NCBI GenBank assembly: GCA_035236585.1
Contig: CP141135.1
Location: 1,584,001-1,648,000 of the forward strand
From: Warburgia ugandensis
Lineage: Eukaryota > Streptophyta > Magnoliopsida > Canellales > Canellaceae
Reading direction: 5' to 3'
DNA length: 64,000 nt
Shown: piece by piece, positions 1 through 48,428 of the stretch
Position numbering within the stretch: position 1 is the stretch's first letter
Layout of the letters: every line of letters begins with the position of its first letter
Translations under genes and position numbers: made by a program
Notes under the pieces: model-generated
The model's database searches: none
Told to the model about the DNA's origin: nothing
What the model saw: the letters and a program-made list of their open reading frames with translations, nothing else

Positions 1-454
1 GTCACTACCATGTTACTGCTGGGATTCTATACTAACTCCCAAATTTATTAAAGATGTACTGAAACCATGAAACAATCTCCTACATGATGGGTACAGAAAA
101 TCCTTATGATAAATCCTCCTTGCCTGTTTGGCTGGCAGTAAATGGATAAAGATTGATTTTCACGGAAAAAGGATTTCTCCGTGAAAAATGTCTTGATATT
201 GAATTATACCAGAGTCCCAAAAATGTTAAATGGGGTAACATTGTTGGGTCATTAGCATAAAATATTTTCTTGTGGACTCTTGCTTTTTTCTTTTTCTTTT
301 TTTATGGAAATCAATTTCCGTCCATTTCTTATTAACCAAACACGTTAAGAATTATCTTATGCTCTCACGGAGGGACTGCTACCTAATCGTCACAGGACAG
401 GTTGATGGACATGCCTTGATAGAACCAGGTGAAACATGTGAGGAGACTATGAAT
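1..454. other. Intergenic, nothing recognised
   Basis: AT-rich sequence with only short open frames. I see no gene, RNA or repeat similarity to the rest of the window until about 455, where the outer inverted-repeat arm begins. Confidence 0.5.
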
Positions 455-1670
455 GAAGTATTGGCTTGTGTGTGGAAAATATGCAATTCGATTAATGCAC
501 CTCACATGCAATTCTATGCGCCCTATCTCATTGATAAACGAGTTACGATTGATATGAGGTTGTCCCCACTAAGTTTGACCATGCTGTTTGTCCACCGTAG
601 ATTGTCTGGAGCCAATCTCTATAGACCATATCCAAGCAGGGCGATCAAGGTTGACTATAAACATCAAACTAAGGGCCCACTTGTACAAATATAGGAGATC
701 TACCCAGATGTACTTGCCTCTTGCTAAGGGCTTCTTCTTCAATATATCCGAACAATATATTGTTGCCAAATCAAATTTCATGGTCCACATTGATTGAGAA
801 AAGTGGCCACAAACTAAAATGTTAATCGGATTGACAAGTGAGGTTGATTAGGCTTATTTTTGTGATTAACAACTTCCTTTAGTGCTAACCTTTTTTCTTT
901 TTTTTTTTAATAGGGAATTCCTTGCATCTGAAATGACCAGTTGAATTAAGAGAATTCATCTCATTTGGGTATTTTATTTATAAGATAAGAAAATTTATAC
1001 TTTTTTTTGTTGTTGTAAATATGAGTTGTTTGTTATGTATGTGGTATGTATTTTTGACCATTTGATTACGATAATTAATCACATTTCTTTAGAGAGAAAG
1101 AGAGATTTATTTGAAGGATCCTTCTCTGCCATAATGAGCTGTCACCTTTTGAATGTGTGCTTTCGATATATTAGTTGCACTGTTGTTTTGGTTTCCTCTA
1201 ACACTTCAGTTTTACCACCACAACGGGCAGAACGTAATTTTGTAAATCCACTATGAGAAGAATATAATGTAAACCCACTTTGAGGAAATATTAGCTCCCC
1301 TATTTAATTAGGTATTTGATTTCTCCTTTGGAAGGTCAAGGTTTAAGTCTGCTCATGGGTGCGTAACTAACTTTCAAAACAAAATAAATAAATTATCCAA
1401 TAAATTACTTCATTTCAATCAATACCAGTATTTATAATATAAACTTTGAAATAAATAGCAAACATATGTTTGAACTGCAAGCAGAACAATATGACTCATC
1501 ACAGCCGTCAGATCTGATCTCAGAGGCAAGAAGGTGGGATCTGTTTGCTGGAAGCTGAAACATGGACGTTGGAACACAATGAGGTAGATTGCGAGTTGGA
1601 TGGACCACTTGGCTTACTGGATGAATGATCTCCTTGTTCATGGTATGCAAATTGATATCTGTTGATTATG
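455..1670. repeat. Outer inverted-repeat arm, left
   Basis: Blocks of this interval recur in reverse complement, in mirrored order, at 12.2-14.1 kb. Positions 460-625 match 13985-14105, 905-985 match about 12812-12895, 1180-1300 match about 12650-12800, and the polygalacturonase tail at 1523-1650 matches 12300-12428. Identity is clear but interrupted by indels. The segment from about 1290 onward also matches 4480-4800 in direct orientation, so it is the same duplicated unit as the inner arm. Confidence 0.8.
1523..1650 (-). pseudogene. Polygalacturonase 3' end fragment (copy 1)
   Basis: The minus strand encodes the last roughly 40 residues of a plant polygalacturonase (glycosyl hydrolase family 28), including the SNSQSTSLCSNVH stretch and the terminal PPSCL followed by a stop. 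It is the most truncated of four copies of this exon in the window. Upstream (higher coordinates) the frame shifts near 1650 and similarity is lost by about 1675 in a short sequence shared with 1065-1095. The GH28 catalytic motifs lie in earlier exons and are absent. This is a remnant, not a gene. Confidence 0.75.
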
Positions 1671-1903
1671 ATAATTAATCACAATTCTTCAGAGAGAGAG
1701 AGAGAGAGAGGCATTGTTCCATCTATCAACGTATGTGTGCCCCACTTTTAGTTATGGAACCCATTTTGCTCCCCTATATCAGTTAAGTTCCAAAATTCTA
1801 ACCACTGAGGACTATCTAATGAATGAGAATTTTGAGATTTCTGCCATCTTACAAGCTTGGACTGTTGAAGCTCACATGAAAGGATGCACTACAATTCGAA
1901 TTT

Positions 1904-1907
<4 letters not shown>

Positions 1908-1979
<72 letters not shown>
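1908..1979. repeat. (GA)n microsatellite
   Basis: Uninterrupted GA dinucleotide run of about 72 bp. It lies at the outer edge of the left duplication block. Confidence 0.97.
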
Positions 1980-1981
<2 letters not shown>

Positions 1982-2329
1982 AAACTCGAGATCCACTTAC
2001 ATCGTGTACAGTACATGTTGAGGTGGTGTCATGATTATATCTAAGTATAAGCGAAACTTAATTAACATGAGTGGCTGCCCATGTTTTGATCATTAGGCCA
2101 CCAGGGGGCTATTTAGGGTGCAATTCGTCACAGTCACACCCGCCACATCATTTTCGTTAGCATACTTGACAAAGCGACTTATAACAATCCCATGCCCTGA
2201 TCTACATAAATATAGATGTTTTAATTGACGGGTCTAATGGAGTTGCGATCTTTACTAGTGCCAATCACCGATGAGATCCTAACATTGTTAGAGTTGACCA
2301 TGCGAATTCCATATGTGTTAGAGCTGTGT
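1980..2329. other. Intergenic spacer
   Basis: Unique-looking sequence between the microsatellite and the inner inverted-repeat arm. No coding or RNA signal seen. Confidence 0.5.
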
Positions 2330-2599
2330 ATCAATGCCAAGATCTTAATTGATCAAATGGTTATGTTACTCAATCAGAAAATGTTCATGTAGAAGTACTT
2401 GATATTAATGGAAGACCTGGATCTTATGGATTGTGGATGAAGTGAAGACAAAGAATGAATGTGTTAGTTAAATAGATGAAAGATGCCCAAAGTTCATGAA
2501 ATAGTTCTAAACCTTGCAAGCCAACTTAGAAAACTTGTCCAACTTACTCAACTTGGTAGCAAATCGAGCAACATATTGAGTTGACTCGCTATGTGCTAA

Positions 2600-2668
2600 A
2601 AACATTTTATTTTTGCTTAGATTTGAACATAAGACCTCCCCACGCAACAATAGCACATCTTAACCAAC
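2600..2668 (-). repeat. tRNA-like (possible SINE head)
   Basis: On the minus strand a TTGGTTAAGATGTG stretch resembles a pol III A box, and GTTCAAATCTA about 30 bp further resembles a B box. The same sequence lies in the right arm at about 9405-9470. No clear SINE body or tail follows and the match is degenerate. Confidence 0.3.
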
Positions 2669-4735
2669 TCAATAGATTGTATGTGTGTATTTAATGTGAA
2701 ATCTTTAATATAGCAAAAAGTAAATAAAATATTATTAGAATTTCACTGGAGTAATTTTGAGTCATCTAGGAGTGGCTTCTAAGTCAAATCAACTTCCCTG
2801 ACTTTCTAGTAAAATCAAGTTTTCTAGTTTTTAATATGCATAAAGTAACTCCGACTTGTCAAATGATCAAAATGATTGACTTAGTAGATCTTGGCATAGG
2901 TGAGCCATAATCTCAAAATTCTTGTTCATTGACTCAGCCCACTTGAATTGTTAGTCCAGAGATAACTTGGGATTTCAAATTCTAAAAAAATAGCTTTTTC
3001 ACTGCTAAACTTAGCCAAGAATAAGGACTCTCTGTTGGACGTCTGGCCAAAATTAAACATCCGTAGCCACCTCTATTTGGCCCATAATGAAAGACAAAAA
3101 TTATCTCACCTCTTTACATTGATCATTCCAAGAAGCCGATGTTTTGGTTTCCTCCAACATTTCAACTTCACAGCCAAAAACAAGAAGTTTTTGAAGTTCT
3201 CAATCTTGACCCCCTAAAATTAAAAGAGTGTAGGTCTTTTATCCAACTATACTACAACTCTTACAAATAAATTTCAGAAGTTGCAGCAGTACTTATACAT
3301 ACTAAGTCATGCCAAAAATTGTATCCTAAAGTTTGTGATTCTCAACAAAATATGCATAGGGTAAGCATGTTAACCTCATTCGTTGAATTGAAACTACCAA
3401 AAGCAGTGCTGGCCCATTTCAAAAACCATTCATTTCATTATCGTGCTCTGTCATGTGAGATTGTTGTCATGCATATGAACCGGATTCACGTTAAGCATCT
3501 TAAAGCCTTTTCATAACATTTTCTTCCATGGCCAAAAATATCTTACTTATCAAGCAATTTCTTGCAATATCTTTGTAGCGGTGATTAGGCTCATCTTTTG
3601 TAATTAACCTCTTTGTTGTCATTTTGATTTTTGGTTTTTCCAGGGTTTGACGGATTAGGCAAATAGGTTATGGGTTATCACTAAACCAATGAGCGTACTT
3701 GAACCCGTGACCACAGGAAGGAACCTTTTTCTTTATTAAATTCAGAACTATACACCCATGCACAAGGAAAAAAATACCCTTCTTATGTCAATTCGTCGTC
3801 TTTTTTTCCCCTCCTTAACTTGGAAATTTCTACAATCTAAAAAAGCTGAGTATTAATGCACCTCATTTGCCTACAATTTAGAACAGTTGGTCGTGGAAAC
3901 CTTAATTCCAGGTTCGAGTCATCGCATTCCTATTTGGCCCAATTACCTTTAGAAGAGTCTTACCATAATCTGATTTGTAATTCCATGGTTGGAGGTAGTG
4001 CATCCCATCTCTTTAGGGCATTTTTGGCGCTTTCACGTTGAGAAGGGTATATTAAGGATACATTTGGTAAGGGTGTATGATAAGGATGGAATGTGAACCA
4101 ATAAATATATGAAAAATGGTGTACATATCAAGATCTATAAGATGTTTAAGTTAACAAACAAGCAAAAAGAGAAATGCCTTATTTATTAGTGAAGCTGATA
4201 TTCCCACACCCCTTTGTACTAAAGTAAATCACTTCAGTACACATTATCTAAATATTGATTCATTTAGCTATTTTTAATGCCACTGATTTTTTTTTTTTAC
4301 AGTTAATTTTAGAAATCAAAGAAAGTAATGGTACAATCATTTAATGTGTGTGATTTTTGGACTAGACCTCATTTACTGCAAAACAACTAATCGGATAAAC
4401 GGTTTGATCATTCAAAAAATAGTCCCCGCGCATACTTTTGGCACAAAGCCCCAAAAGAGGATGAGGCATAGTTACGAAGGGTTGAGGAAATATTAGCTCC
4501 CTTATTTAATTAGGTATTTGATTTCTCCTTTTGAAGGTCAAGGTTTAAAGGCTGCTCATGATGTGTGTATCTAACTTTCAAAACAAAATAAATAAATAAA
4601 TAAATTATCCAATAAATTACTTCATTTTAATCAACATTACTAGTATTTAAAATATAAACTTGGAAATAAATAGCAGACATATGATTTGAACTACAAGCAC
4701 CACAATATGACTCATCACAGCCGTCAGATCTGATC

Positions 4736-4999
4736 TCAGACACAAGAAGGTGGGATATATTTGCCGGAAGCTGAACCATGGACGTTGGAACACAACGAGG
4801 TTAATTGAGAATTGGATGGACCGCTTGGCTTACCGGACGAAGGATATCCTTGTTCCTGGTACTGCAAATTGATATCTATAAGACCCACATTCTCACATGG
4901 TACATCTTCACTACACAACATATTGACTGCAACTTCCGATGCCGAGGTGCCGGATATGCGTCTGAAAGTAACATTACGGATTTTAACATGTGAGGGGGT
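4736..4999 (-). pseudogene. Polygalacturonase last exon (copy 2)
   Basis: An 88-codon open exon on the minus strand preceded by a good acceptor (CAG at 5002-5000) and ending in PPSCV and a stop. It carries the C-terminal beta-helix signature of plant GH28 polygalacturonases: VKIRNVTFRRISGTSASEVA, then CSEDVPCENV and DINLQYQ. The exon is undamaged by itself. No catalytic exon lies upstream in the expected position, where sequence matching the right arm has been deleted. It is therefore an orphan exon in the left arm of the palindrome. Confidence 0.85.
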
Positions 5000-5563
5000 C
5001 TGCGAAATAAAAACAGAGACACCAAAACTATGAGATTCCATCCGTGTTTGGACTGTCTGCAGGTGCAGAGATCTCAACCTACCGAATGGTTATGTGACTT
5101 GATTCATAAATACTTATGTGAAAGTACTTGCTGTTGATGTAAGCTATGCCTTTGATCCCTGCATCGGTGACATAGTTGAGTTTTATAGACTATGGATGGA
5201 GAAAGCACAAACAAAGAACAAATGGGTTAAGACAAATAGATGAAGAATGCACAAAGTTCATAACGTAGATCCTACTTATCAAATGATCAAACTCATTGAT
5301 TTAATAGATTGAGGTAAAGTTAGGGCATAGTCTCGAATTTTTCCTTCATTTGACAATCCTAAGGCTATGATGTGTGGAGCAGAGTCACAAAGTTCAGATG
5401 TAAGAACAAATATGCAAGCCAAATATTTGCAAAAATTCAGAAAATGTTAATGAAAATTTTGTAAAAAAGTCATAATTCAGATATGAATTAAAGCTTTTCA
5501 TTTGAATGTTATTTAGATTATAAATAATATTTGAGAATTTGGCTACTAATTGTAAAAGTTGAG

Positions 5564-5760
5564 TTTAAAAACAAAAGGCAGCCCGAAACTCCCGCTTATG
5601 TGGTTTGACACTAAGTGGCACATGGGTACTAGGTAGGTACCACTAAAGATTTATATTACGATGCTTACCTCGCATTGTAAGAGGCTGTTTTTATGACTCA
5701 AATCTGTAACCATGAGTTCACGTGGCGACAACTATACCGTTGTACCAAGGATCCTTTTTT
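5564..5760 (-). mobile_element. Au-type SINE with perfect 15-bp TSD
   Basis: A tRNA-derived short interspersed element on the minus strand. It begins with the CCTTGGTACAACGG A-box region and ends in the GCAGGAG...GCTGCC tail typical of plant Au SINEs. The direct repeat attgtaaaagttgag flanks it exactly at 5549-5563 and 5761-5775, marking target-primed insertion. It sits in the spacer between the two inner inverted-repeat arms, and a diverged copy of the same insertion is at 11307-11509. Confidence 0.9.
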
Positions 5761-6159
5761 ATTGTAAAAGTTGAGCTCTATTGGGTATTTTACATTTATT
5801 TGCAAATATTTTACTTGCATATTTGTTCTTACATATGAACTTTGTGAATCTGCTCCACACATCATAGCCTTAGGATTGTCAAATGAAGGAAAATTTTGAT
5901 ATTATGTCCTAACGTTACCAAGATCTATTAAATCAATGAGTTTGCTCATTTGATAAGTAGGATCTACGTAATGAACTTTGTGCATTCTTCATCTATTTGA
6001 CTTAACCCATTTGTTCTTTGTTTTTGCTTCCTCCATACACAGTCTATAAAACTCAACTATGTCACTGATGCACGGATCAAAGGCATATCTTCCATCAACA
6101 GCAAGTACTTTCACATAAATATTTATGAATCAAGTCACATAACCATTTGATTGGTTAAG

Positions 6160-6529
6160 ATCTCTGCACCGGCAGACAGCACTCAAATGATGTTGGAATA
6201 TCCTCGTCAGTGATTGGCACCGGCAATGATTGCGTCTCCATTTGTCCCGGCAGTTCAAACATCAATATTGACAACATATTATGGGGACCAGGCATGGGAT
6301 CAGTATAGGTAGCCTTGGCAAGTATACGAATGAAGATGACGTGGTGGGTGTGAATGTGATAGACTGCACCCTGAATGGCACCACCAATGGTCTAAGGATT
6401 GAAACATGGGCAACTGCATATGCTAGTTCAGCTTCTCATATCTCCTACTCGGATATAATCATGGACAATGTCTACACTCCACTTATCATCAATCAGAAGT
6501 ACTGTCCAGATGGATACTGCAATCAACAG
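6160..6529 (+). pseudogene. Polygalacturonase catalytic exon, disabled
   Basis: This is the catalytic exon of a GH28 polygalacturonase, which hydrolyses homogalacturonan in the cell wall. Visible in order are an APADS stretch, SVIGTGNDCVSICPGSSN, HGISIGSLGKY, NGLRIETW, and a donor site at 6530. All four family signatures are damaged. The NTD region after APADS is scrambled. The catalytic DD is ND (codon at 6225-6227). One base is missing near 6293, so the GHG motif is split between frames. The substrate-binding RIK is RIE. It is dead as an enzyme and supplies the parent identity of the four 3' fragments. Confidence 0.9.
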
Positions 6530-7084
6530 GTAATATGCATGGGTTAGTGGATCTTCGATTCTCTCTCTTGAAACTATGCTGTTGTATTATAGGCAAACAA
6601 AAAAGTGAGTGAAGGGTCCACTTTTTACATTTCTTTCCACGATCCAAATTATTCATCAGATTTGCCTTATCTTGGATGGCTTCAATACTTGGGCATAATT
6701 AGGTCCTTCATTTTTGAATATTTTGAAGACAAAAATAGAGACCCAAAAAACTGCATACTATTTGTTTTCTTTTTTTACTAATATTTCAAATGGCCAAAAA
6801 TGAAGGGCCTAAATGCATCTAATACATGTGAAATTTTGTACCTAGGTCATCTGAGATTTTGATGAATGGTTTGCATCTTGAAAAGAAATGCAAAAAGTGA
6901 ACCCACCATTCACCTTTCTAGTACGCCTGTGATGAAATCGGTAGATTAACAGTTCTGGCTAACCATTGTTTGATCCCACTAATGAAATTAGTGAATAATA
7001 GATCCTGTCATTTATAACACTTAATTTTGATTATTGAATGTGGCATGTTCTCATACTTTTGGTGTCTCTGTTTCTGTTTCTCAA

Positions 7085-7360
7085 ACCCCCTTGCATGTTA
7101 AAATCTGTGATGTTACTTTCAGATGCATATCTGGCACCTTGGCATAGGAAGTTGCAGTCAATATGTTGTGTAGTGAAGATGTACTGTGTGAGAATGTGGA
7201 TCTTATAGATATCAATTTGCAATACCAGGAAAAAGGACATCGTTCATCTAGTAAGCCAAGCGGTCCATCCAATTCTCAATTAACCTCGTTGTGTTCCAAC
7301 GTCCATGGTTCAGCTTCCGGCAAACAGATCCCACCTTCTTGCCTCTTAGATCAGATCTGA
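7085..7360 (+). pseudogene. Polygalacturonase last exon (copy 3)
   Basis: Terminal exon downstream of the catalytic exon, separated by an intron-like 555 bp. It is broken in three ways: the acceptor AG seen in copies 2 and 4 is AA here (7083-7084), codon 21 is a TAG stop at 7145-7147, and the normal stop is lost so the frame runs on for a few codons to 7360. The CSEDVLCENV and SNSQLTSLCSNVHGSASGK segments are otherwise preserved. Confidence 0.85.
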
Positions 7361-9404
7361 CCGCTGTGATGAGTCATATTGTGCTCCTTGCAGTTCAAAT
7401 CATATGTCTCTATTGATTTCAAAGTTTATATTGTAAATACTCGTAATGTTGATTAAAATGAAGTAATTTATTGGATAATTTATTTATTTATTTTGTTTTG
7501 AAAGTTACATACACACGTCATGTGCAGCCTCGAAACCTTCACCTTTCAAAGGAGAAATCAAATACCAAATTAAATAAGGGAGCTAATATTTCCTCAACCC
7601 TTCGTTACTATGCCTCACCCTCTTTTGGGGCTTTGTGCCAAAAGTATGTGCGGAGACTACTTTTTGAATGATCAAACCATTTATCTTATTAGTTGTTTTG
7701 CAGTAAATGAGGTCTAGCCCAAAAATCACACACATTAGATTATTGTACCATTACTTTCTTTGAGTTTTATAATTAACTATTAAAAAAAAATCAATGGCAT
7801 TAAAAATATCTAAATGAATCAATATTTAGATAATGTGTATTCAAATGATTTACTTTAGTACAAAGGGGTGTGGAAATATTCCGTAATAAATAAGGCATTT
7901 CTCTTTTTGCTTGTTTGTTAACTTAAACATCTTATAGATCTTGATATGTACACCATTTTTCATGTATTTATTGGTTCACGTTCCATCCTTATCATACACC
8001 CTTACCAAATGTATCCTCAATATACCCTTCTCAACGTGAAAGCGCCAAAAATGCCCTAAAGAGATGGGATGCACTACCTCCAACCATGGAATTACAAATC
8101 AGATTATGGTAAGACTTTTCTAAAGGTAATTGGGCCAAATAGGAATGCGATGACTCGAACCTGGAATTAAGGTTTCCACGACCAACTGTTCTAAATTGTT
8201 GGCAAATGAGGTGCATTAATACTCAGCTTTTTTAGATTCTAGAAATTTCCAAGTTAAGGAGGAGAAAAAAAAGACGACGAATTGACATAAGAAGGGTATT
8301 TTCTTTCCTTGTGCATGGGTGTATAGTTCTGAATTTAATAAAGAAAAAGGTTCCTTCCTGTGGTCACGGGTTCAAGTACGCTCATTGGTTTAGTGATAAC
8401 CCATAACCTATTTGCCTAATCAGTCAAACCCTGGAAAAACCAAAAATCAAAATGACAACAAAGAGGTTAATTACAAAAGATGAGCCGAATCACCGCTACA
8501 AAGATATTGCAAGAAATTGCTTGATAAGTAAGATATTTTTGGCCATGGAAGAAGAATGTTATGAAAAGGCTTTAAGATGCTTAAGGTGAATCCGGTTCAT
8601 ATGCATGACAACAATCTCACATGACAGAGCACGATAATGAAATGAATGGTTTTTGAAATGGGCCAGCACTGCTTTTGGTAGTTTCAATTCAACGAATGAG
8701 GTTAACATGCTTACCCTATGCATATTTTGTTGAGAATCACAAACTTTAGGATACAATTTTTGGCATGACTTAGTATGTATAAGTACTGCTGCAACTTCTG
8801 AAATTTATTTGTAAGAGTTGTAGTATAGTTGGATAAAAGACCTACACTCTTTTAATTTTAGGGGGTCAAGATTGAGAACTTCAAAAACTTCTTGTTTTTG
8901 GCTGTGAAGTTGAAATGTTGGAGGAAACCAAAACATCGGCTTCTTGGAATGATCAATGTAAAGAGGTGAGATAATTTTTGTCTTTCATTATGGGCCAAAT
9001 GGAGGTGGCTACGGATGTTTAATTTTGGCCAGACGTCCAACAGAGAGTCCTTATTCTTGGCTAAGTTTAGCAGTGAAAAAGCTATTTTTTTAGAATTTGA
9101 AATCCCAAGTTATCTCTGGACTAACAATTCAAGTGGGCTGAGTCAATGAACAAGAATTTTGAGATTATGGCTCACCTATGCCAAGATCTACTAAGTCAAT
9201 CATTTTGATCATTTGACAAGTTGGAGTTACTTTATGCATATTAAAAACTAGAAAACTTGATTTTACTAGAAAGTCAGGGAAGTTGATTTGACTTAGAAGC
9301 CACTCCTGGATGACTCAAAATTACTCCAGTGAAATTCTAATAATATTTTATTTACTTTTTTCTATATTAAAGATTTCACATTAAATACACACATACATTC
9401 TATT

Positions 9405-9470
9405 GAGTTGGTTAAGATGTGCTATTGTTGCGTGGGGAGGTCTTATGTTCAAATCTAAGCAAAAATAAAA
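9405..9470 (+). repeat. tRNA-like (possible SINE head), right-arm copy
   Basis: Mirror copy of 2600-2668 within the right arm. The same degenerate A-box and B-box spacing is followed by an A-rich stretch (aaaaataaaatg). Confidence 0.3.
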
Positions 9471-9700
9471 TGTTTTTAGCACATAGCGAATCAACTCAAT
9501 ATGTTACTCGATTTGCTACCAAGTTGAGTAAGTTGGACAAGTTGTCTAAGTTGGCTTGCAAGTTTTAGAACTATTTCATGAACTTTGGACATCTTTCATC
9601 TAATTAACTAACACATTCATTCTTTGTTTTCACTTCATCCACAGTCCATAAGATCCAGCTATGTCACATATACATAGAGGGAGTGCAGGTCTTCCATTAG

Positions 9701-11053
9701 TCCCCATTAAATGCTAAAAAACCTAGGAGGGGACGAGACTAATTCACTCTAAGGTAACGGATTTGTCATTTCCCTTTAACGAAACCTCCTTCATCTATGT
9801 AAGAGTCTATTATCGCATGGACTCCAATGCATGGGATAAAAATAGTAGTTGATATGTCGTTACTAAATATTAAAAATCATATATAGAATCATAATATGTC
9901 CATTTCATATCTTAATACAACATTTTATTTCTACCGTATTCTTGATAGGCTTAGAAACACCGGTTTCTTATCTTCTTAAATGTGTGATTGCAAAGTTTTC
10001 ATAAATATTATTGCCCTACTTCCTATCAATTTAAGTTTTTAAGTCCAACTGATTATCCGATAGTAAGCCAATTCATGAAAATAGTAATCTGTGGTGAATC
10101 AGTGATGGCTGTCCCTGTGTCAAACAGCCCATTTGTGAGTATTCGGTAGAGTCTCCAGCCAATGGTGCAAGATTGACAAAAATGAAACATTCTTCACTGT
10201 TTGATCTGTACTCTAAAAAGTTAATGGACATCAAAATATATCACCAAATGCTCAGGAATTCCTCTATTCAATCCTTTGTTGCTTGATATCTCGTGCAAGT
10301 TCATATGTATTAATTCTATGCATTTGAAGTCATTGTATATGAACTATCACACTTGTTGCAGTTCATGAGATGATTATAAATACATTTAGTATATTTAAGT
10401 TGCAGACTCGCACCAATTGTTAGATTAGCATTGAACGGATGAGATCTAGTACAGTGGGGCCCAGCGGCACTAGATATAAGTTTTCTTTGCAATATTCTAC
10501 TGGGTTTATGCCTTCTACTTAATGCCCCTAAATTTGATCAGCTGTAGTGAAAATGTATTGCATAGATTTGCGTTGAACGTTTAGATCAAGACTATTGGGC
10601 CCACCTTCACTGGGTATGGGTTTTCGTTAGAAGGAATTGGTGCTTTTCATGGAACCTACCTTGTCCGGTGGATCAAACAAGTAGCCTAAATCCTAGGCTA
10701 TATCAACTTTGGGCAGGATTCAGATCAACGTCAGCAATTAGGATTACCCGGCAGGATCATGATTTGATTAAGGAAGTCTATAAAAATTATGCCATGGTTG
10801 CTTTCCCGCTCTCATTATCTTAAGACAAAAATTTTCCTAGTTTAAGGGGTTAAAATTATCTTTGGTATGAATCTTGTTTAGGAGGCGAAATTATCTTTCC
10901 ATTGATCTCAAAACATCTGTCGGCTTCAAGTCTAGCTACTGGTTCAATCCTAGCTATTCATTTACTGGACATACTGCGGATGGGGCTCTGCACTTGCTTT
11001 TATCTAGGCTTTGAATGCACTGCCAGAACAAAGACACCCAGTAACACTTAATC
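9701..11053. other. Intergenic between duplication blocks
   Basis: Apparently single-copy sequence separating the inner right arm from the outer block. I see no gene, RNA or repeat in it. Confidence 0.5.
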
Positions 11054-11174
11054 AACTAACCAAATGCTTATTATAGGTCCAGTTTTGGGGCCCTCAAACC
11101 TTTTGCCTGCTAACCCTTGGTATGGAGGGAAGTCCTACCCCAGAACTGGACCTATAGTAAGCATTTGGTTAGTT
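11054..11174. repeat. 37-bp inverted repeat (foldback)
   Basis: The first 37 bp (from aactaaccaaatgcttatta) and the last 37 bp are reverse complements with 2 mismatches, around a 47-bp loop. A transcript would form a long near-perfect hairpin. It may be a tiny MITE or a foldback. No clear target-site duplication is visible. Confidence 0.85.
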
Positions 11175-11306
11175 TCCTTCTTCTTTTTTCTTTTTTTACG
11201 CCTTAACTTTTTCGTAAAGAAGTACCGAGTTTCTGTAATTTTTTAAATTCAAAGCAAAATTCGATAAATAAATGTAAATTACCCAATAGAGCTCAACTTT
11301 TACAAT

Positions 11307-11509
11307 AAAAAAGGATCCTTGGTACAACGGCACAGTTGTTGCCACATGAACTGGTGGTTACGGGTTCGAGTCATAGAAACAGCTTCTTACCATGCGAGGT
11401 AAGGCATCATATTATAAATCTTTAGTGGTTCGCCACCTACCCAGTACCCACATGCCACTTATAGTATAACCACATAAGCAGGAGTTTCGGGCTGCCTTTT
11501 GTTTTTAAA
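11307..11509 (+). mobile_element. Au-type SINE with 15-bp TSD
   Basis: Full-length-looking Au SINE: CTTGGTACAACGG, then the B-box region ACGGGTTCGAGTC, then GCAGGAGTTTCGGGCTGCC and a T-rich tail. Flanking repeats are ctcaacttttacaat (11292-11306) and ctcaactgttacaat (11510-11524), one mismatch. The paralogous sequence near 32526-32550 lacks the element and shows only one copy of the target. Confidence 0.9.
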
Positions 11510-12164
11510 CTCAACTGTTACAATTAGTTGCCAAATTCTCAAATATCATTTATAATCTAGATAAAATTCAAATGAAAAGCATAAATTCATATCTGAATTA
11601 TGATTTGTTTACAAAGTTTTCATTAACATTTTCTGAATTTTTGCAAATATTTGGCTTGCATATTTGTTCTTAAATCTGAGCCTTAGGATTGTCAAATGAA
11701 GGAAAATTTTGAGATTATGTCCTAACTTTACCATGATCTATTAAATCAATGAGTTTGATCATTTGATAACTAGGTCCTTCATTTTGAATATTTTGAAGAC
11801 AAAAATAAAGACTCAAAGGTACTGGATACTGTCTGCTCTTCTTTTCTTTTTTACTTCAAATGGCAAAAAATGAAGGGCCTAAATGCGTCCAATACATGTG
11901 AAATTTTATACCTAGGTCATTTGAAATTTTGATGAATGGTTTGCATCTTGAAAAGAAATGTAAAAAGTCAGCTCACCATTTACCTTTCTAGTACGCCTGT
12001 AATGAAATTCGTAGATAAACAGTTTTGGCTAACCATATTTTGAGCCCACTAATGAAATTAGTGAATAATAGATCCTTCCATTTACAACTCAATTTTGATT
12101 ATTGAATGTGGACCATCAGATTAGCATGTTCTAATAGTTTTGGTGTCTCTTTTCTGTTTGGCAG

Positions 12165-12428
12165 ACCCCCTCCCATGTTAAAATCCATGATGTTACTTTC
12201 AGATGCATATCCGGCACCTCGGCATCGGAAGTTGCAGTCAATATGTTGTGTAGTGAAGATGTCCCGCGTGAGAACGTGGATCTTATAGATATCAATTTGC
12301 TGTACCAGGAACAAGGAAATCGTTCATCTGGTAAGCCAAGCGGTCCATCCAATTCACAATCTACCACATTGTGTTCCAACATCCACGGTTCTGCTTCCGG
12401 CAAACAGATCCCACCTTCTTGCCTCTGA
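12165..12428 (+). pseudogene. Polygalacturonase last exon (copy 4)
   Basis: An open 88-codon terminal exon with a good acceptor (GCAG at 12161-12164) and a stop after PPSCL. It aligns over its full length with copy 2. The cysteine of the CENV motif is replaced by arginine (VPRENV), which would remove a conserved disulfide residue. No catalytic exon precedes it. Upstream sequence instead joins to a copy of the SINE block, so the gene is truncated. Confidence 0.85.
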
Positions 12429-13598
12429 GATCCAATCTAATGGCTATGATGAAGCATATTGTGCTTCTTGCAGTTTAAATCATATATCTGTTATTTATTT
12501 CAAAGTTTACATTATAAATACTTGTAATGTTGATTGAAATGAAATAATTTATTGGATAATTTTATTTATTTATTTTGTTTTAAAAGTTAGATACACGCCC
12601 ATGAGCAGCCTTGAAACCTTGACCTTCTAAAGGAGAAATCAAATACGTAATTAAATAAGGGAGCTAATATTTCCTCAAAGTGGGTTTAGATTAGATTCTT
12701 CTCGTATTGGGTTTACATTAGATTCTTCTCGTAGTGGGTTTACATTCTTCTCTTGGAAAAATTCCATTCTGCTCGCTGTGGTGGTAAAACTGAAATGTTA
12801 GAGGATAATTTTTCCTATCTTGTAAATAAAATACCCAAATGAGATGAATTCCCTTAATTCAACCGGGCATTTCAGATGCAAGGAATTCCCTATGAAAAGA
12901 AAAAAAAAAAAGGTTAGCACTAAAGGAAGGTGTTAATCACAAAAATAAGCCTAATCAACCTAATAAGATTAACCTCAAAAACAGTTTTTTGGGGAGCTGG
13001 TTGTTGGCCAGGAAATGCTTGATCAATTGACGCAATCGCTTAGGAGCATAGGCTTTACCAGCTGCCCTAATCCATAGTAAATTATCTTCCATCCACCAAC
13101 CTACAAAATCACAAATTAAATGAAGATTAGTCGGTAGACATTTGTGACTGAGGAAAATATACTATGAAAAGGCTACGACATGCTTAAGATGAACACGAGT
13201 CACAGGATGAAATTACGTAGTGAAACTTAAGTTACAACAGATGATCTCAATGGCACAAATAGGCAGATAATGAAAGATGAATCTAACAACCCTATAGGCG
13301 ATTCAGGTCCAACTTTCATGCTCTTATATCATATTAAGTATTTTTCAGTGCCATTTCTTTATTCTTATTTCATAAACCATCATCATCAGGGTGTTAATCC
13401 CAATTAGGGGTTGGGATAAAATTTAAATAACTTAAGAACTAATTAATACCTGCTGTTTGCTATACCACGGAGTCCAACCCCACAGAGTTGCAGGTTCTTC
13501 CCTCGTAACAAAAGATGAACAAATAAAATTTGCACAAACAATTTGCAACTTCTCAAATATTATTACATGTAAATCTCCAAATTTTTTTCTAATATTTT

Positions 13599-13937
13599 TT
13601 GTATATCTGCCTTGGTGATTTATTCTTGAATCCTGAACATGTGATTGTGCTTGTGATTCAATTGACCAATTTGATCGATTACTGTTTTCAAGATGATAAT
13701 TCTCTTAATCTGGATCATGCAACAAAGGACCTACTAGTGGATCAGATGATCCTAGCGATTGAATCGATCTCCTATAAATGCTTAAATAGGAAATTACTTT
13801 TTCCAAAATTCGCAATTCCAATAGGACAATTTTGTCTCATTGGAGGGAGTAGAGGGCTCTACTCTGTTCCGTTGCTTGAAAACTTAGACTTGCAAACGAA
13901 AACTCATCCGGGAAGATCTTCCAAATCGAATATATAA
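13599..13937 (+). other. Unrecognised 112-codon open frame
   Basis: An ATG-to-stop frame inside the outer duplication block. The predicted protein shows no motif, signal peptide or family resemblance I recognise, and no promoter or splice support is visible. It is listed only because it is longer than most chance frames here. Confidence 0.1.
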
Positions 13938-14271
13938 AACATTTATTATCTTTTTAACAACCTAATAAATAATTCAATTTATAGAGTTTGGCTGCCGGAC
14001 AATCTACAGTGGACAAACAGTATGGTCAATCTTAGTGGGGCCAATCTAATATCAATCGTAACTTGTTTATCAATGGAATTGCATGTGAGGTGCATTAATG
14101 GATGTGCAAACGTGAGAAAATAAAAAAGAAAGAGGAAATCTGGGTGGATTTCTCAAGGGTTTTATCAATGCAATTCCAAGCATCTTCCCCCTTTTAGCTC
14201 TAAAGCAAGCGGGTAAAAAAGTCCCCATTTGGTACAGGGAGAAATAATCTCAATTTCACGAGGATTCTATT

Positions 14272-16139
14272 AACAAAGGAAACAGTGCAAAAAGCTATTA
14301 AAGAAAAACGAATGCATTTTAAAGCGTGACAGAAGATTAGAAATTATGAAAATTATGAACAATATAAGAATGCTAAAAACGTTGCTAAGAGAATAGTAAG
14401 TGAGGCAAAACTTAAAGCATATGATGAGCTCTATAATAGACTAGGAATAAGAGAACAGAAGGGTAAGGACTTAGAGCATGTTAGGTGCATTAGAAGCGAT
14501 GATCAAAAGGTATTAGTCAAAGATTATGAGATTAAACAAAGGTGGGAAATATACTTTCAAAAATTGTTAAATGACAATGGCCGTGAGAATATAGGGATTG
14601 AAAATACTATAATTCTAAATAACACTGGATATTATAGATATGAATGTAGGATTAGAATGCTTGAAGTAAAAGAGGCCTTGAGAAAGATGAAATCAGGAAA
14701 GGCCATGGGGCCTGATGGTATACCAATAGAGGTTTGGAAGCATATGGAAGATAGTGGAGTAGTTTGGTTGACCAAGTTGTTTAACAAGATAATAAAATTA
14801 AAGAAAATGCCTGATGAGTGGAGGAAAAGCTCTATTGTACCAATCTATAAAAATAAAGGAGACATTCAGAGCTGCACTAATTATCAAGGGATCAAACTTA
14901 TGAGCCACACCATGAAACTTTTTGAAAGAGTGGTTGAGAAGAGGCTACGACATGAAACAAGTGTATCAGAGAATCAGTTTGGTTTCATGCCTGGGAGGTC
15001 TACCATGGAAGCTATTTTCTTACTAAGACAATTAGTAGAGAAATATAAGGAGAAGAGAAAAGACCTACATATGGTTTTTATTGACTTAGAGAAAGCTTAT
15101 GATAGAGTCCTTAGAGAGTTAATATAGAGCGTATTGGGTGTTAAAGGGGTTTCTCAGGGGTATATAGACATAATTAAAGATATGTATGAAGGAGTAGTAA
15201 CAAATGTTAAGACCACTAGTGGCGTGACTGGTGATTTTCCTGTCACTGTCGAATTGCACCAAGGATTGGCATTGAGTCCATACCTTTTCACATTAGTTAT
15301 GGATGAGTTAACAAAACATCTGCATGAGGAGATTCCCTAGTGCATGCTATTTGCAGACGATATAGTCCTACTTGATGAGACAAGGGAGGGTGTAAACATA
15401 AAGCTAGAGTTATGGAGAGAAGTATTAGAATCGGAAGGATTTAAAATTAACCAAACTAAGACAAAATATATGGAATGTAATTTTAGTAAGGAGAGTAGGA
15501 GTGGAGCACTAGTCAAGATTGATAACCAAGAGGTCCACATGAGAGACTACTTTTGATACTTAGGATCATTGATCCATGAGAGTGGAGAGATTGAGAGGGA
15601 GGTTACCCAGAGAATTCAAGCGGGTTGGAACAAATGGAGATGTGCATCGGGTGTTTTATGTGATCTGCAGGTGCCACTCAAACTAAAGGAAAAATTCTAT
15701 AAGATGGCTATAAGGCCAGTTATGCTCTATGGATCAAAGTGTTGGGCAGTTAAGGAACATCATACTCATAGGCTGAGTGTCGCAGAAATGAGGATGTTGA
15801 GATGGATGAGTGGTAAGAGAAGAAAGGATAGAATTAGAAATGAAAATATTAGAGGAAATTTAGGGATAGCACCAATAGGTAACAAGATGAGGGAGATTAG
15901 ACTTAGATGGTTTGGACATGTTTAAAAGAGGCCAACAATGGTACCAGTTAGAAGGAGTGAGGCAATACAAGTTGAAGGTTATAAAAGGGCAAGGGGAAGG
16001 CCCAAAAGAACGTGGATAGAAGTGGTGAGGAAAGATTTAAAAACTTTAGGACTAAATGAAACCATAATATTTAATAGAGTAGAATGGAGGAATAAGATTC
16101 ATGTGGCCAACCCCTAATTGGGATAAGGTCTTGATGATG
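14272..16139 (+). mobile_element. 5'-truncated RTE-clade LINE with 14-bp TSD
   Basis: Non-LTR retrotransposon. Frame 2 carries the fingers/palm of a LINE reverse transcriptase: GKAMGPDGIPIEVWK, the QFGFMPGRST block, FIDLEKAYDRV, the catalytic FADDIVLL (Y/FxDD) near 15350, then the RTE-type C-terminus (AIRPVMLYGSKCW, RLRWFGHV, RGRPKRTW) and a short 3' end with TGATGATG. The apurinic endonuclease domain is missing through 5' truncation. Premature stops at 14327, 15125, 15338, 15554 and 15923 interrupt an otherwise indel-free frame to a final stop at 16115. The 14-bp acgaggattctatt flanks it at 14258-14271 and 16140-16153. Inactive. Confidence 0.96.
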
Positions 16140-19205: not shown

Positions 19206-22200
19206 CTAGAAGCGAGAAGGTGGCAAGGTTTTACCACCGAGGAAATGGGAGAAGAGAGAAAGGGACTGGTCAGGCGCCAAGACCGGGACTTGATGACCCG
19301 CGCCTCTCACGGTAGCTAGGGTCAATCCCTCGTACTCCACCACCCATCCAGCAACTTGCTGCTTGTGAAACCAAGCCTTCCATCCATCCTTCACCCCCAA
19401 ACCCAACGCGTTAATGCTGTATCTCGTCGATGTCACCGGGACCCGCCCGTCCGTGTCTCCGCTATCAACAGCCACAACATTGAAAGTTACGTTTCATTAC
19501 AACCTAGATCTCCAAATCCCTCGATCAATGATAATCTCAACAATTGGCTCTCTAGATCTCAAGGGAAAATTTAGTCACCCATCATATTCGAGACCCACCT
19601 TTGAAGAATGATAGGACTTGTTCATGTCATTTCTCCCACTTTAGATGTATTATAGATCAAAAAGCTAAGAAATCTAAAGTTGGAGCAATGACACAAATGA
19701 GTCGGGTGATCCAAAGGTGGGCTCCAAATATTTGGGTCCCTGGACCGCACCTCATGGTGTTCCTCTAATTTTAAAAAGAAGAATCAAATTTTCAAGTATA
19801 TAATTGGAGAGATTGACAGAATAAATGTGGGCCACAAATGATTAGAGCCATTGATCTTCTAGACCCTGCCTCAGATAAGCAATTGCATGACAACAGCCTT
19901 TTCGTTTTGAGGTGTAAACTGGACATCTTAGAGTTTTCAAGAAACAAATCGGATGAAAGTTTCAAAATTGAAAGTCCAGTGGATGGCTATGACTATCTAG
20001 AAAACATAGTCCATGGCCCACTGCTGATCCTACTTGAGGCCAATCAGCTGGATAAAATGAGTGATGGGACCCACTCAGGTTGGGGTCTACACGTTAAGGG
20101 ATTTGACAAACTGTTTGAGTTAGTGAGGTACCTGTAAACCCAGATCCTGAGGCCAGCCTTTACGAGCTTCTTGATGATGGGGAGGATGGAGTCGGGAGAA
20201 TCATTCCATTTCCTTATAACTTCGCTGCACTCAAGGACAACCCACATTAACTAACTGATGTTTACTGTAAAAAGGAAAATGGGCGCACGGCCAACGGTTT
20301 AGAAGTGATGGTCCTGATGGAAGTGTTTTAAAAAGGTTGGAAGTATATTACCCTCGCGACAGAAGGGATTTATATCAGCTTTAATAATGATTAGGACCCA
20401 CATTTTGACATTGGAACTGTTATGTCACTAGAGTGTCTACAGCCGATATGAGACTTGCAGCAGCCTTAAAATACTAATTTTAGCAATTCAAAAAGATAAA
20501 GGAAAAGACTATTAATATAGATTAGAGGCCTTGCAGATAACTTGGTCTCTCTTCTGTAATATGCTTGGTCGCAGATTTGAATCGTTGCCTTTCTCTTTAA
20601 TGAGGAAATAGATTTAGGACTGTAAGTGAGAGTCTGTGATTTGCTCTGAAATTCTTGGCTGGTACCTAGAAAAGAAAAAAAAAAAAAAAAGGGGGCAAAA
20701 AAAAGGATCGGGGTACTACAATCAAATGTGGTAGTGCAAATATCATTTCCATAGTTTTAGCGAACGTATGTTCTCGGATCCACCAAGGTAATGACACAAA
20801 AAACACTGCTTGATACTACTAGTCATATGGAGTTATGGACGTGAAAAGAGCTCTCCTCAAACTATTTTAAACCTCAGGCTTTATCTCCCTATTTGGAAGC
20901 TGATTAAACCTAAGATCTTCGAAGATCTTTAACGAATACGAGCCGATAATCTGGGTAAAAAGGTAAAACAGTCTGGGCTATCGCACATTATATATAGGGA
21001 GGCACATAAAAGAACAGGTCATTGATCAAGTGGCCACCACTTGTACAGTTGTACTATTCCGTCTGGTGCATTCTCCCATATAAGGCTCTTAACTCGTATC
21101 CTTGATAATACTGGTGTATGGACTGATCCTGAGCTCAAGTGATAGGGATGACGCTTCTCGAACTTACATACAGAGATAGATGGATATGGTAGCAGATATT
21201 ACCAAGAAATTATTGGTGGTGAAAAGTACGAAAGAGAAAGGTCGAGAATCGGGTATTTCGACAACTTATGGCAGAGTATCAGACAGCTCCAGTTCGGAGG
21301 TTCGAAAAATAGAGTAAATGCTGGAAAGTTCCAGTTGAGGGAGTTTTGCAGAAGCCCAGCTGCAAAACTACAGACAGAATGAAAGAAATGTCGAAATAAA
21401 TGAGAGAGATAAATGCAAATGGGGAGCAAGAAGAAGCCTTGACGTGAGACCCAGCATTGGGTCCTGTGCCACCTGGTACTGGTATAGTTAGGACCCGACC
21501 AATCGAAATATGACTAGTGAAAGTATCTTTATCTAGCTCAATTAATAGCTTATGAAATAAGAAGCAATGGTTTAGATTCAAGATCAGAAGCATCTAGTTC
21601 AAGTAAACACAAGTAGGTGGTGCAAGGCCTTCAGAAAATAAATGTAAGAGAAAATAGGTGGAATTTATACCTGCAAGGTGAGTATGGATAGGACAGTTTG
21701 GTGACATTGGCGTGCAAGGCCTTCTGAACATCTTCCCTGTTGAAATAACGCTCCACATAATCCTCAGTGCAGGGATCGTAACCGGACGGTAACTTATGCC
21801 AGAGATCCTGAAATCAATACACACAAAATTTAAGCTAAACAGTTGAACCGCATCTTTGTTTGGGGTAGAAACAAACTTACGTGTTGTGACAAAGACCGAG
21901 GGGCAGCGAGGAGCTTGGGAGCAGTTTTCCTTTCGAAATCACTGAGGCAGACAGGCGCGTAGATGCTGTAGATATCAATGTCTGAGTAAGCTTGAAGAAA
22001 GCTCTTGATGGCTGAACTGCAGAGAATAGTCTGATTGCCACTCTTGAAGTTGCACTGCTTGTTTATGCTGTGGTAGAGCTGATCTGAGATAATGGCGTGG
22101 CTCCATGCGTACTCAATCATGCCTATTTCATCAGTTTCGTCATTCAATACTGCATTTCCAATCTGAACACCGAAGGCGGAAATTTCAGTATCACAGGATT

Positions 22201-25200
22201 GAGAAGCTCCCAACTATGGCCAGATACATGACAATTTGACCTGGTTCAGACTTGATATAAGCATGATCCAGACCCTTCATCTGTGGTGTAATACCATTAA
22301 TAAAAGGCCCATATGACGCAACTGTCAAGTGGGAGGGCCCGGGTTGTGCTTCTGATCTTTCCCACACTATCACTTCCTCCGCCTTTTTCTCTTTGCTCGT
22401 TGACTAACTTAGTAAAGAGTAAAAAGAAAGGACAAAAAACAAACTAATAGGATGGGACAGCCGCGGTGAATGAAGCTCTCCCTATACAGGGTCCCAGGCA
22501 GGGGCAGACCATAAGGGCTTATAAGACAAGATTTACTTCGAAGAAAACAAAAGCAGACCATGGGTTGGTTCTTACCATGAAACCTTTGAAATTAATGTAA
22601 GAATCTTTGCTTGCTTGCTTGTTCCTGTCGTAGATGAGTTCGGAAAGCTGGGGAACATAGTGTCCTGCAAGTGCAAAAGAAGACCAGGGGTTGGTTTCTT
22701 CCCACCCATTTACAAGGAAATTAAAGGAAGTAAAAAGACGCGGCTCAACGCAAAGAATGGAAATGAAAAATCTTATTCTTATCCCCTTGTTCTGATAATG
22801 GTACTCCTCTCTTTATTTTGCAATTTGCAGTTTTTGGTTGTTGATTAGCGGCTTATTACTAGTCACTGACAACAAATGAAATATGTATTCAATAGAGAAA
22901 GGAGTGTTATTAGTGGAAGACCGAGTTTTGATCATATTTCCAGGCCAAAAGTTAGAAAACCTTACCTGCATAGCTCTCTCCGGCAATGTAAAAATCGTGA
23001 GACTTGTAGCTGGGGAACTTCTTGAACCAGTTGATTAGAAACGCATGAGAGTCTTCTGCCGCAACCCCATCACCCAATTTAGCTAAATCCTCCGTTTTGT
23101 TTGTATAAGAAAAGCCAACGCCAACAGGAGCTTCAAGAAATAGGAGGTTCGCAACTGCACTCAAGTAAAACGGGGAGATGAGATCAAATTTGATATTGAC
23201 ACCCCTAAATTTAGGTGCCGAAACCTAGGCGTAGGAACAATGTATAAGATCCGTGCCTTTATTCCAAGAGCACCGGTTAAGCATAAGCTTTGACTGGTTA
23301 CTTCTTACGAGGAATGGCCCCAACTCCTGAGCGGCTCCGTAGGCAACGGAAGAGCAACCTGGGCCTGCATTTTCCATTTAAATCATATCAGATAAACGAG
23401 AACGTACATGCTACTATCAAGTGTTCGGGTGGCTACCAAACTCAAGTGGGTGCCTGATTTTGATGATCTGAAGGCATGGCCCATCTAAAACATGGGCTGA
23501 AGTTGGATGGTCTGGATCACTGAAATTCAGGTTCTACTTGTACTTTTGCACGGATTTACTCTGAAAATTTTCAATGTTCTACAGTTTGACCAAGCAGAGA
23601 GCAGTGTTCTTAGAGTTCGAAATGGCTCAATAATGGATTGTCTCCTTGTTTGCAGTTCAATAATCAGAAATGTGTTAAACAACGAAGTGCAATCATCAAA
23701 GAAGGCAGTGGAGATGTCATCTCCACGTAGGACTCCTTATCGCCAAACATATAGGACTACCCGTCTGTTTTACCTAGACCCTAACTCACAGGGGGGTCTA
23801 CCAATATAAGAGGTGCAGCTGGATACTACTCTTTTGTTCTCCATCATCAAGAGCTCCACCAGTACCGTTGTAGCAGTTCAGAGTCTCAGACGCTTTGCAA
23901 ATCCCACTGGAGAAATGATGGCACCACGGGAGCACTGTAAACCAGCTAATCATTCCAAATCTACAGGACCTGTGGACTAGCTCATTTGGTACTTCCCCCA
24001 AGTTCTCCTCCATGAACCAATAACATAGATAATGATATATTCTCCTAGACTTCTCGTTCTTAGGAAAAACCAATAATATTTGTTGCTATCTTGAGTTGCT
24101 CGACGATGAAAGCTAGATCTCAAGAAACCCAGGCTATTGGCTACTCTACACCAAGAGGCTAACCTTATTCAATCTCTAATCTTAAATGTCCATTAGAAAT
24201 TGCCATCCAAACTTTTTCTAGCTTTTCAATCTATCTGTTTCTTTTGGTTTCTTCATAGGGGACCAGGGAAGAGGTGAGCTAGAAGGGCCATTAGTACATA
24301 GCCTTACCTTACATTTTTTGTAAGAGGCTGTTTTCATACCTACCCTAGACCTCCATGTCACATAAGGGTAATTCAACCATTGCACCAAGGTCCAGAAAGG
24401 CAATAATCCAACAGGTCTCAAATTTCCAGTCATATCAGCTTGACCATGGAAACAATCCATATGAAAGTTCCTCAAAACACAAGTATACCTTTCTTGTTTT
24501 CAACCTCTAATCCACATTAGGACAACTCTAATATCTCAAAGTGTTTTCCAATTCTCCATAATTGGGAACAGATGGAAGAGGCAAGTTTGAATACCTCAAG
24601 TCTATTCCAATCCTCCAGAATTGGGAACAGGTTGGAGGGCAAGTTTGAAGAAAGAAAAACATGGTAGAAGCATAAAATTCTGTCAGATCACCTTGACCAT
24701 GAAGCCCACGAAAATGAAAGTTCCACATAGCTACATAACACTAGCACCTGTCTTGTTTCAACCTCTACTTCACATAAGGACAGCTCTAATATCTCAAAGT
24801 GTTTTTCTTTTCTCCATAACTGGGAACAGATCGAGAGGCAAGTTTGAATACCTCAAGTCTGTTCCCATCCTCGAGAGTTACCAACAGGTGGGAGAGGAAG
24901 TTTGAAGAAAGAAAAACATGGTACAAGCATCAAATCAGTCAGATCACCCTGAACATGGAACACATGAAAATGAATGATCCGCATAGCTACATAATAGTAA
25001 TACCTGTCTTGTTTTTAAGTTTCAATCCTCCACAATTGGGACCAGATGGAAGAGGCAAGTTTGAATACCTCAAGTCTGTTCCAATCCTCCACAGTTGGGA
25101 AAGATGGGAGGGCAAGTTTGAAGAAAGATAAACACGGTACAAGCCTCAAATTCAGTCATATCAGCTTCAGAATATTGCCCATGAAAACGTAAGTTCCACA

Positions 25201-27577: not shown

Positions 27578-27781
27578 GGATCTCCCCCTCTCACTAGGTT
27601 CTCTCTCTAGAGATTCTCGTTCTTGCTCTCTCTCCCTCTCTTGTTTCTCCGGGGAATGGAAGTTTGGTGAAGAAGGCTGGAAATTTTTGCAGCGAGTGGG
27701 AGTGGCTTTTGTAGGAAAGAGAGGGAAAGTGGTTAAAGAATTGCAATGGACTGATAGGAGGAGTTGGAATTGGGTGGCTTC

Positions 27782-27793
27782 TTTTTTATATTG
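27782..27793 (-). promoter_or_regulatory. Candidate TATA box for SCPL gene
   Basis: On the minus strand an AATATAAAAAAG sequence lies about 210 bp upstream of the carboxypeptidase start codon. The intervening leader is GA-rich on that strand, as is common for plant 5' UTRs. Position is plausible but unverified. Confidence 0.35.
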
Positions 27794-27899
27794 GCACTCT
27801 ATTTCCTTTGTTTTGATTGCACGGAGTTCTTATATGGTTTTTGGGCATGTAGACCAGTGCATGATTGACTCCAGCTAAATCAACGTGTGAGGCCCATTG

Positions 27900-39224: not shown

Positions 39225-39350
39225 CATGAGGGAGAGAGAGAGAGAGTGCTTCTCTCAAACTGCATGACGGGACACGCAAACTGATGTTTCTAGTAGAACA
39301 AGAAATGAGGAAGACTATTCTTTAGTTTATTGTAGCCTAACTGAGACTTC

Positions 39351-39422
<72 letters not shown>

Positions 39423-39540
39423 TGTGTGCTTCTCTCAAACTGCATGACGGGACACGCAAACTGATGTATCTAGTAGAACAAGAAATGAGGAAGACTATTC
39501 TTTAGTTTATTGTAGGCAGAACAAGAAATGAGGAATACTA

Positions 39541-39610
<70 letters not shown>

Positions 39611-39760
39611 CTTCTCTCAAACTGCATGACGGGACACGCAAACTGATGTATCTAGTAGAACAAGAAATGAGGAAGACTATTCTTTAGTTTATTGTAGGCA
39701 GAACAAGAAATGAGGAAAACTACACGAGAGAGAGAGAGAGAGAGAGAGAGATTTCCTCCT
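39225..39760. repeat. 180-bp tandem repeat fused to long GA arrays
   Basis: Three units begin TGCTTCTCTCAAACTGCATG at about 39247, 39427 and 39609, a spacing of 180-182 bp. Each has a unique part of about 110 bp (ACGGGACACGCAAACTGATG, ACAAGAAATGAGGAAGACTA) followed by a GA run: 39354-39420, 39544-39609 and 39726-39751. Unique parts are almost identical, so the amplification is recent. Confidence 0.95.
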
Positions 39761-48210: not shown

Positions 48211-48428
48211 GACAATTTACATTATTTCTTTAAGCACTTGAAAACCTATTTCAAAGGAATGAAGCTCAATTGATCCAAACTCCTTACTTTCAGCTCACCA
48301 AATCAAACCGCTGCCAAAAGCCTAGCACGCCAAGAAACATAAACAACCACCCCCTATTACAAATGAAACAGCACCAAGTAGCATGTACTCCGCATCTCTA
48401 GAACCTCCCAACTCTCCATCTCCCCACT

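Follow-up and report, generated by a model that had tools for sequence, protein, structure and literature searches.

Inverted polygalacturonase copies in Warburgia ugandensis: probably an ordinary duplication cluster that decayed into pseudogenes near a complete gene

When broken copies of one gene lie on both strands around a common centre, are they the remains of ordinary gene duplication, or do they form a source of hairpin RNA that silences an intact relative? The question is raised by a locus of Warburgia ugandensis (GenBank assembly GCA_035236585.1, contig CP141135.1, here C10). It lies at the start of a 64,000-nucleotide stretch, C10:1584001-1648000, which we call the window and whose coordinates are used wherever no contig is named. 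Four broken polygalacturonase (GH28) copies lie within positions 455-14105, c1 and c2 on the minus strand and c3 and c4 on the plus strand. We consider it very likely that they belong to an ordinary cluster of inverted and tandem GH28 duplications that decayed into pseudogenes near a complete gene, here called c6. The kind of locus is already known, and this example is more extensive than first noted, being part of a six-copy cluster that extends about 20 kb to the left of the window.

The inverted arrangement is far beyond chance. A self-comparison of window positions 1-16000, together with a repeat search, gives an inner inverted repeat in which 2417-5035 of c2 pairs with 7049-9658 of c3 (95.9% identity over 2622 columns, BLAST E printed as 0). 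At the centre is a head-to-head stem of 381 bp, formed by 5053-5433 and 5799-6179 (92.1%), with a loop of 365 nucleotides (nt). The outer inverted repeat, between c1 and c4, is patchy and has a private flank; its blocks pair 482-623 with 13980-14108 (81%), 841-1001 with 12802-12961 (93%), and 1218-1660 with 12287-12737 (86%). A genome search with the c1 flank (455-1279), in which very common words are skipped, returned five rows: the flank itself, three blocks of the c4 flank and one 44-bp internal repeat. An earlier note on this DNA had described a nested inverted duplication in which one GH28 last exon occurs four times, twice on each strand. The four copies are borne out by Pfam (PF00295) and tblastn, and the nesting is seen in the self-comparison that the note had proposed. 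The inner arm, however, is not the uniform unit of about 3.1 kb that was claimed; it measures about 2.6 kb, and the central stem of 0.4 kb is separate from it. Between inner arm and stem, c2 is without about 0.9 kb that c3 retains. The centre junction at 5798-5807 is also asymmetric, its c2 side alone carrying 370 bp of c6-type sequence. The letters TTT are common to both sides of this junction, a homology that fits template switching or end joining, yet could easily be chance.

The genome (1.12 Gb in 14 contigs) was searched with the PF00295 profile; scoring of 123 out of 234 candidates yielded 135 matches at exon level. Neighbouring sequence was examined in stretches from C10:1535001-1584500. 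The best match among those scored lies at C10:1565270-1565800. The plus-strand gene c6 has four exons (exon 1 at C10:1563640-1563780, exon 2 from 1564057, exon 3 at 1565279-1565794, exon 4 from 1566351), GT/AG borders and a complete reading frame of 409 residues, in which NTD, GDD, GHG and RIK, which we take to be the catalytic motifs of GH28, are all intact. Its start lies 20.4 kb, and its end 17.4 kb, to the left of window position 1. It has retained about 2 kb of native 3' flank, and its identity to c2 and c3 is 91-95%; an intact polygalacturonase of high identity, for which a genome search had been advised, is thereby found. The idea that c6 lacks exon 1, which a motif search had missed, was rejected, since alignment finds the exon. 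Tail-to-tail with c6 stands an inverted copy on the minus strand, c5. Its exon 1 can still be made out, its reading frame is interrupted by a frameshift and a stop, and its last exon is truncated. The order of the cluster is c6(+) c5(-) c1(-) c2(-) c3(+) c4(+), and c6 exon 1 and the far end of the c4 flank are about 34.5 kb apart. A genome search with the DNA of the c2 last exon and 3' untranslated region (3'UTR) returned 22 rows, grouped as eleven copies plus short fragments. The eleven are c1-c6, four distant copies at C10:68.53, 69.02, 69.04 and 69.07 Mb, and a relative at C8:23.77 Mb (80%).

In excerpts of a survey of plant GH28 genes (PMC1794546), the tandem clusters of Arabidopsis and rice have truncated members beside intact ones, and tandem copies are less often expressed. 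Local polygalacturonase duplication and truncated pseudogenes near intact genes are common to those clusters and to the present one, but here the orientation alternates. Among the 135 matches, as read from the table of scored candidates, this locus is the only one with GH28 neighbours on opposite strands within 100 kb; the clusters on C12, C5, C9 and C4 each occupy a single strand.

The copies have decayed in different ways. All of c1-c5 have disabling lesions or absent exons, and no window copy carries NTD, GDD, GHG and RIK intact in one reading frame. The minus-strand copy c1 consists of a 3' flank (482-1001), the left outer arm, whose blocks 482-623 and 841-1001 are repeated inverted beyond c4; a partial last exon with 3'UTR (1218-1660, coding match 1651-1520); and a decayed exon 3, the catalytic exon (2030-2415), which has stops, frameshifts and NTY, and in which 75% of 406 aligned bases equal c6. 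The c1 last exon is flanked by a 44-bp direct repeat (1062-1105 and 1662-1705, 91%) lying by GA-rich runs. In c2, also on the minus strand, the left inner arm comprises the native 3' flank (2417-4481, of which 2417-4197 is about 99% identical to the c3 arm) and the last exon with 3'UTR (4482-5035, the exon being open at 4999-4736). Beyond it, 5053-5801 holds an exon 3 shortened to motif I, intron 2 and some upstream sequence, with the left side of the stem at 5053-5433; of the four motifs NTD only is retained. The plus-strand copy c3 begins with the right side of the stem, made of intron 2 and the start of exon 3 (5799-6179), followed by exon 3 (6040-6531, borders approximate, by alignment to c6), and then by the right inner arm, which comprises the last exon (from 7085) with 3'UTR (7049-7597) and the 3' flank (7598-9658). 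In its exon 3 there is an internal stop, the NTD motif is deleted, GND stands in place of GDD, the frame shifts at GPGHG, and RIE replaces RIK. Its last exon has the acceptor CAG changed to CAA, an internal stop, and the normal stop TGA changed to TTA. In c4, likewise on the plus strand, exon 3 is absent; intron sequence from upstream of it remains (11191-11788), as do intron 3, the last exon (12165-12428) and 3'UTR (11766-12678), and a 3' flank (12679-14108) that forms the right outer arm and pairs at 12802-12961 and 13980-14108 with the c1 flank. A plus-strand fragment at 10235-10387 is 96.7% like the stretch that separates exon 1 from exon 2 in the 69-Mb copies.

The Pfam gathering cut-off for PF00295, 22.9 bits, is exceeded by the last exons of c2 (4736-5089 minus, E 2.9e-9, 36.9 bits) and c4 (12138-12428 plus, E 2.8e-7, 30.4 bits) and by exon 3 of c3 (87.7 bits). 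The last-exon pieces of c1 and c3 gave no Pfam hit, the c1 piece having been given in another frame; both align to the c2 last exon in tblastn. The catalytic exon had been said to survive only in the inner right arm. This was wrong as to place, the exon being decayed in c1, present as its first third in c2, and entirely gone only from c4; as to survival, the sequence is there in c3, but with a stop, a deletion and a frameshift it is dead.

The ratio of nonsynonymous to synonymous substitution (dN/dS) over exons 3 and 4 is 0.27-0.30 when c6 is set against the four distant copies (253 codons used and 1 skipped). With c6 as the reference, the values are 0.62 for c5, 0.41 for c3, 0.51 for c2, 0.46 for c4 and 0.51 for c1, from 226, 241, 141, 93 and 186 codons, respectively, with gaps, frameshifts and stops skipped. 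Judged from their sequences, c1-c5 are dead, and the lesions, rather than the dN/dS ratios, are the main evidence.

The flanks and arms bear on how the cluster arose. The flank of c2 and c3 also follows c6 (96.4%) and, for 144 bp, the C8 relative (76%), and it is therefore the native 3' flank of the gene. By their 3' flanks, c1 pairs with c4 and c2 with c3, which fits what would be expected from inverted duplication of an older tandem pair. Within the inner arms identity jumps from about 92% to 99% near 4197/7880; differences between c2 and c3 number 66/829 proximal to 4197 and 14/1355 distal to it (Fisher P 1e-16). In the 3' flank, 2838-3399 is more than 99% identical in c2, c3 and c6, while the adjoining gene parts differ by about 7-8%; this sameness may reflect recent homogenisation or constraint.

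Several observations weigh against so simple a course of duplication and decay. For exon 3 alone, dN/dS is 0.31 between c3 and c6 and 0.29 between c5 and c6, resembling functional pairs. Against one distant copy the values are 0.30 for c2, 0.36 for c4 and 0.47 for c3; the dN/dS contrast is modest and not clean. In trees of the last exon c1 and c4 do not form a pair, nor do c2 and c3 in a FastTree built from exon 4 and the 3'UTR. In the tree rooted on C8, c4 groups with the four distant copies (99), c1 joins that group weakly (64), and c2 and c3 go together weakly (59). Intron 3 groups c3, c5 and c6. The nearest partner varies by segment, c3 being closest to c6 in exon 3 and intron 3 (96%) and the 3'UTR of c1 being nearest to that of c2 (94%). 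Since c1/c4, and in the FastTree c2/c3, are not recovered as pairs, a simple history requires conversion or later rearrangement, and the segments point to a mosaic history, probably one of patchy gene conversion. Finally, c2 and c6 show a weaker step in the same direction (58/829 differences proximally and 35/1355 distally, P 1.7e-6), so that the jump in identity between the arms may be due in part to a locally reduced mutation rate. PMC2277409 summarises gene conversion among the gene families of rice, including their pseudogenes.

Taken as a decayed duplication cluster, the locus would have grown by tandem and inverted duplication of GH28 genes, which then decayed to pseudogenes. An asymmetric junction with short homology, near 5798-5807, would be the site at which the inverted duplication formed; the inner arms would have been homogenised later over their distal 1.78 kb, probably by gene conversion. 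Such a locus would by default be without a product; its RNA, if read through, would fold to hairpins that could be diced.

This last step leads to the alternative that survives best, to which we give a small probability: an inverted-repeat silencing locus, in which a read-through hairpin of c2/c3, or of c6/c5, would be diced to small interfering RNAs (siRNAs) of 21-24 nt that would target c6 and its paralogues. Formation of hairpin RNA is plausible on physical grounds. The RNA of 5053-6052 is predicted to fold at -483.7 kcal/mol, against a mean of -218.4 for shuffled sequences (z -40.8), and none of 20 shuffles is as stable. The length of the stem, the short loop and the presence of a complete gene close by also favour silencing, as does the finding that 1-14200 contains the reverse complement of 3340 of its own 13974 21-mers. 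The 21-mers that c6 shares with the stretch lie in exon 3 (183/469, 14 of them stem-competent), exon 4 (78/265, 36 stem-competent) and the 3'UTR (95/230, 43 stem-competent). By comparison, three C12 GH28 loci share 0, 0 and 2 21-mers with the locus, the C8 relative 51/5929, and window positions 16000-64000 share 4/47625. Against silencing, exons 1 and 2 of c6 share none (0/125 and 0/280, the borders of exon 2 being approximate); searched against window positions 1-16000, these exons and the 500 bp that precede them give an E value of 0.28 at best. The last-exon arms are 91% alike. For exons 1-3 the better hairpin candidate is the c6/c5 pair outside the window, whose stem-competent 21-mers number 38/125 in exon 1, 91/280 in exon 2 and 121/469 in exon 3, though c6 keeps its own 3' flank.

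A C-to-T excess was also considered. Pooled over c2-c5, it is found in CG (20/93, P 4e-12) and CHG (14/258, P 0.012) contexts relative to CHH (32/1359), and suggests past cytosine methylation; the consensus used for it omitted c1, and the close similarity among the four distant copies makes them a weak control. As a mark of arm-specific silencing the signature was rejected, since the complete gene c6 shows the same excess (CG 5/34, CHG 5/93, CHH 5/468), which thus does not distinguish the arms and counts against the silencing locus. CpG/CHG depletion of the arms relative to c6 showed no clear difference.

Known inverted repeats allow a further comparison. Rice Low glutelin content1, the subject of Kusaba et al. 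2003, is reportedly a tail-to-tail pair that has lost the transcription-ending sequence between its genes. The c6/c5 pair is also tail-to-tail, but differs in the 2 kb or so of native flank that c6 keeps. Any activity of the present locus would work like the inverted repeats of rice and soybean. In excerpts of the soybean reports, the chalcone synthase cluster (PMC3534067, PMC3608071) has inverted gene copies with intact members elsewhere, as here, and the aquaporin NIP6-1 repeat on Gm14 (PMC3534067) is likewise inverted gene-like sequence matching an intact gene, with 621-bp arms and about 1,000 nt between them. For the former, siRNAs are reported along with revertants that lose the repeat, and for the latter about 400 unique small RNAs, whereas the Warburgia locus is known from sequence alone. 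Rice inverted pseudogene pairs, as excerpted from PMC2708354, consist, as here, of neighbouring pseudogenes that are paralogous, face opposite ways and could form hairpins; the two pairs described were chosen with small-RNA data, and their stems measure 154-185 bp, against 381 bp in Warburgia. The criterion applied in rice was a stem of more than 100 bp with a loop of less than 2 kb, and the central stem and its loop lie within both limits. Two further features of siRNA loci are present, a long inverted repeat of gene sequence and, in exons 3 and 4 of c6, an intact relative with perfect 21-nt stem matches. What defines such loci is transcription through both arms, together with arm-derived small RNAs and a lowered target mRNA, effects that disappear on deletion of the repeat. 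The few natural cases known are cited in PMC3608071. No polygalacturonase inverted-repeat siRNA locus was found among titles and abstract openings of the open-licence literature. An siRNA role of the locus is possible but hypothetical. A fuller scheme, in which hairpin siRNAs from c6/c5 and c2/c3 would act as a natural RNA-interference switch that damps c6 and the copies at C10:68.5-69.1 Mb, with conversion keeping the arms alike, we regard as improbable; its contexts may include, for example, fruit softening, abscission or pollen development.

Less probable still is an assembly artefact, in which reads or haplotypes were misjoined as inverted copies. In their distal part the inner arms reach 99% identity and include a perfect match of 415 bp, and palindromes are a recognised source of assembly error. 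However, the gene parts of the copies are mostly divergent by 8-14% or more and carry differing lesions, the c1/c4 and c2/c3 pairs have distinct flanks, and there are independent copies of the same gene at C10:68.5-69.1 Mb. An artefact is unlikely because most gene parts diverge to this degree. To capture of gene fragments by a transposon with long inverted ends we give the lowest probability of all: inverted ends do surround gene fragments and a retrotransposon adjoins them (14287-16000), but introns are retained, the flank in the arms is the one that natively follows c6 and the C8 relative, and no transposase match was found among the 20 translated pieces searched in Pfam, so that, given the introns and the native flank in the inner arm, capture was thought unlikely.

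The neighbourhood holds other features. The adjoining element at 14287-16000 is a non-LTR (non-long-terminal-repeat) retrotransposon (long interspersed nuclear element, LINE) with an RVT_1 match, and to the left of the cluster C10:1543.6-1560.4 kb contains three relatives of it, 90-93% identical, of which the middle one is inverted. Open stretches match serine carboxypeptidase (S10) on the minus strand (21833-22213 and 27185-27829) and cytochrome P450 on the plus strand (48402-49733 and 50274-50702). A 365-bp segment at 22719-23083 is 95% identical to sequence past the last exon of the polygalacturonase copy at C10:69.04 Mb, perhaps a shared repeat, and at 39228-39751 there is a 182-bp tandem repeat of 2.9 copies with GA runs inside. 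Searches of the window with ARAGORN for tRNAs, and with Rfam at gathering scores, gave no hit, and 2417-5035 had no match in plasmid records, which plant DNA would not be expected to have. Elsewhere in the genome, C12:57.35-57.54 Mb carries eleven GH28 copies on one strand, of which four, equal in score among the candidates scored, are about 10.9 kb apart; this spacing suggests recent tandem amplification.

If the locus is ordinary, as we favour, it is a well-resolved example of the birth and decay of an inverted gene cluster, showing copies in direct and in inverted orientation, flanks that pair, and a jump in identity inside one palindrome arm. If silencing were true, a cell-wall-loosening enzyme would join the few plant genes under natural inverted-repeat control, with a complete candidate target, c6, about 20 kb away.

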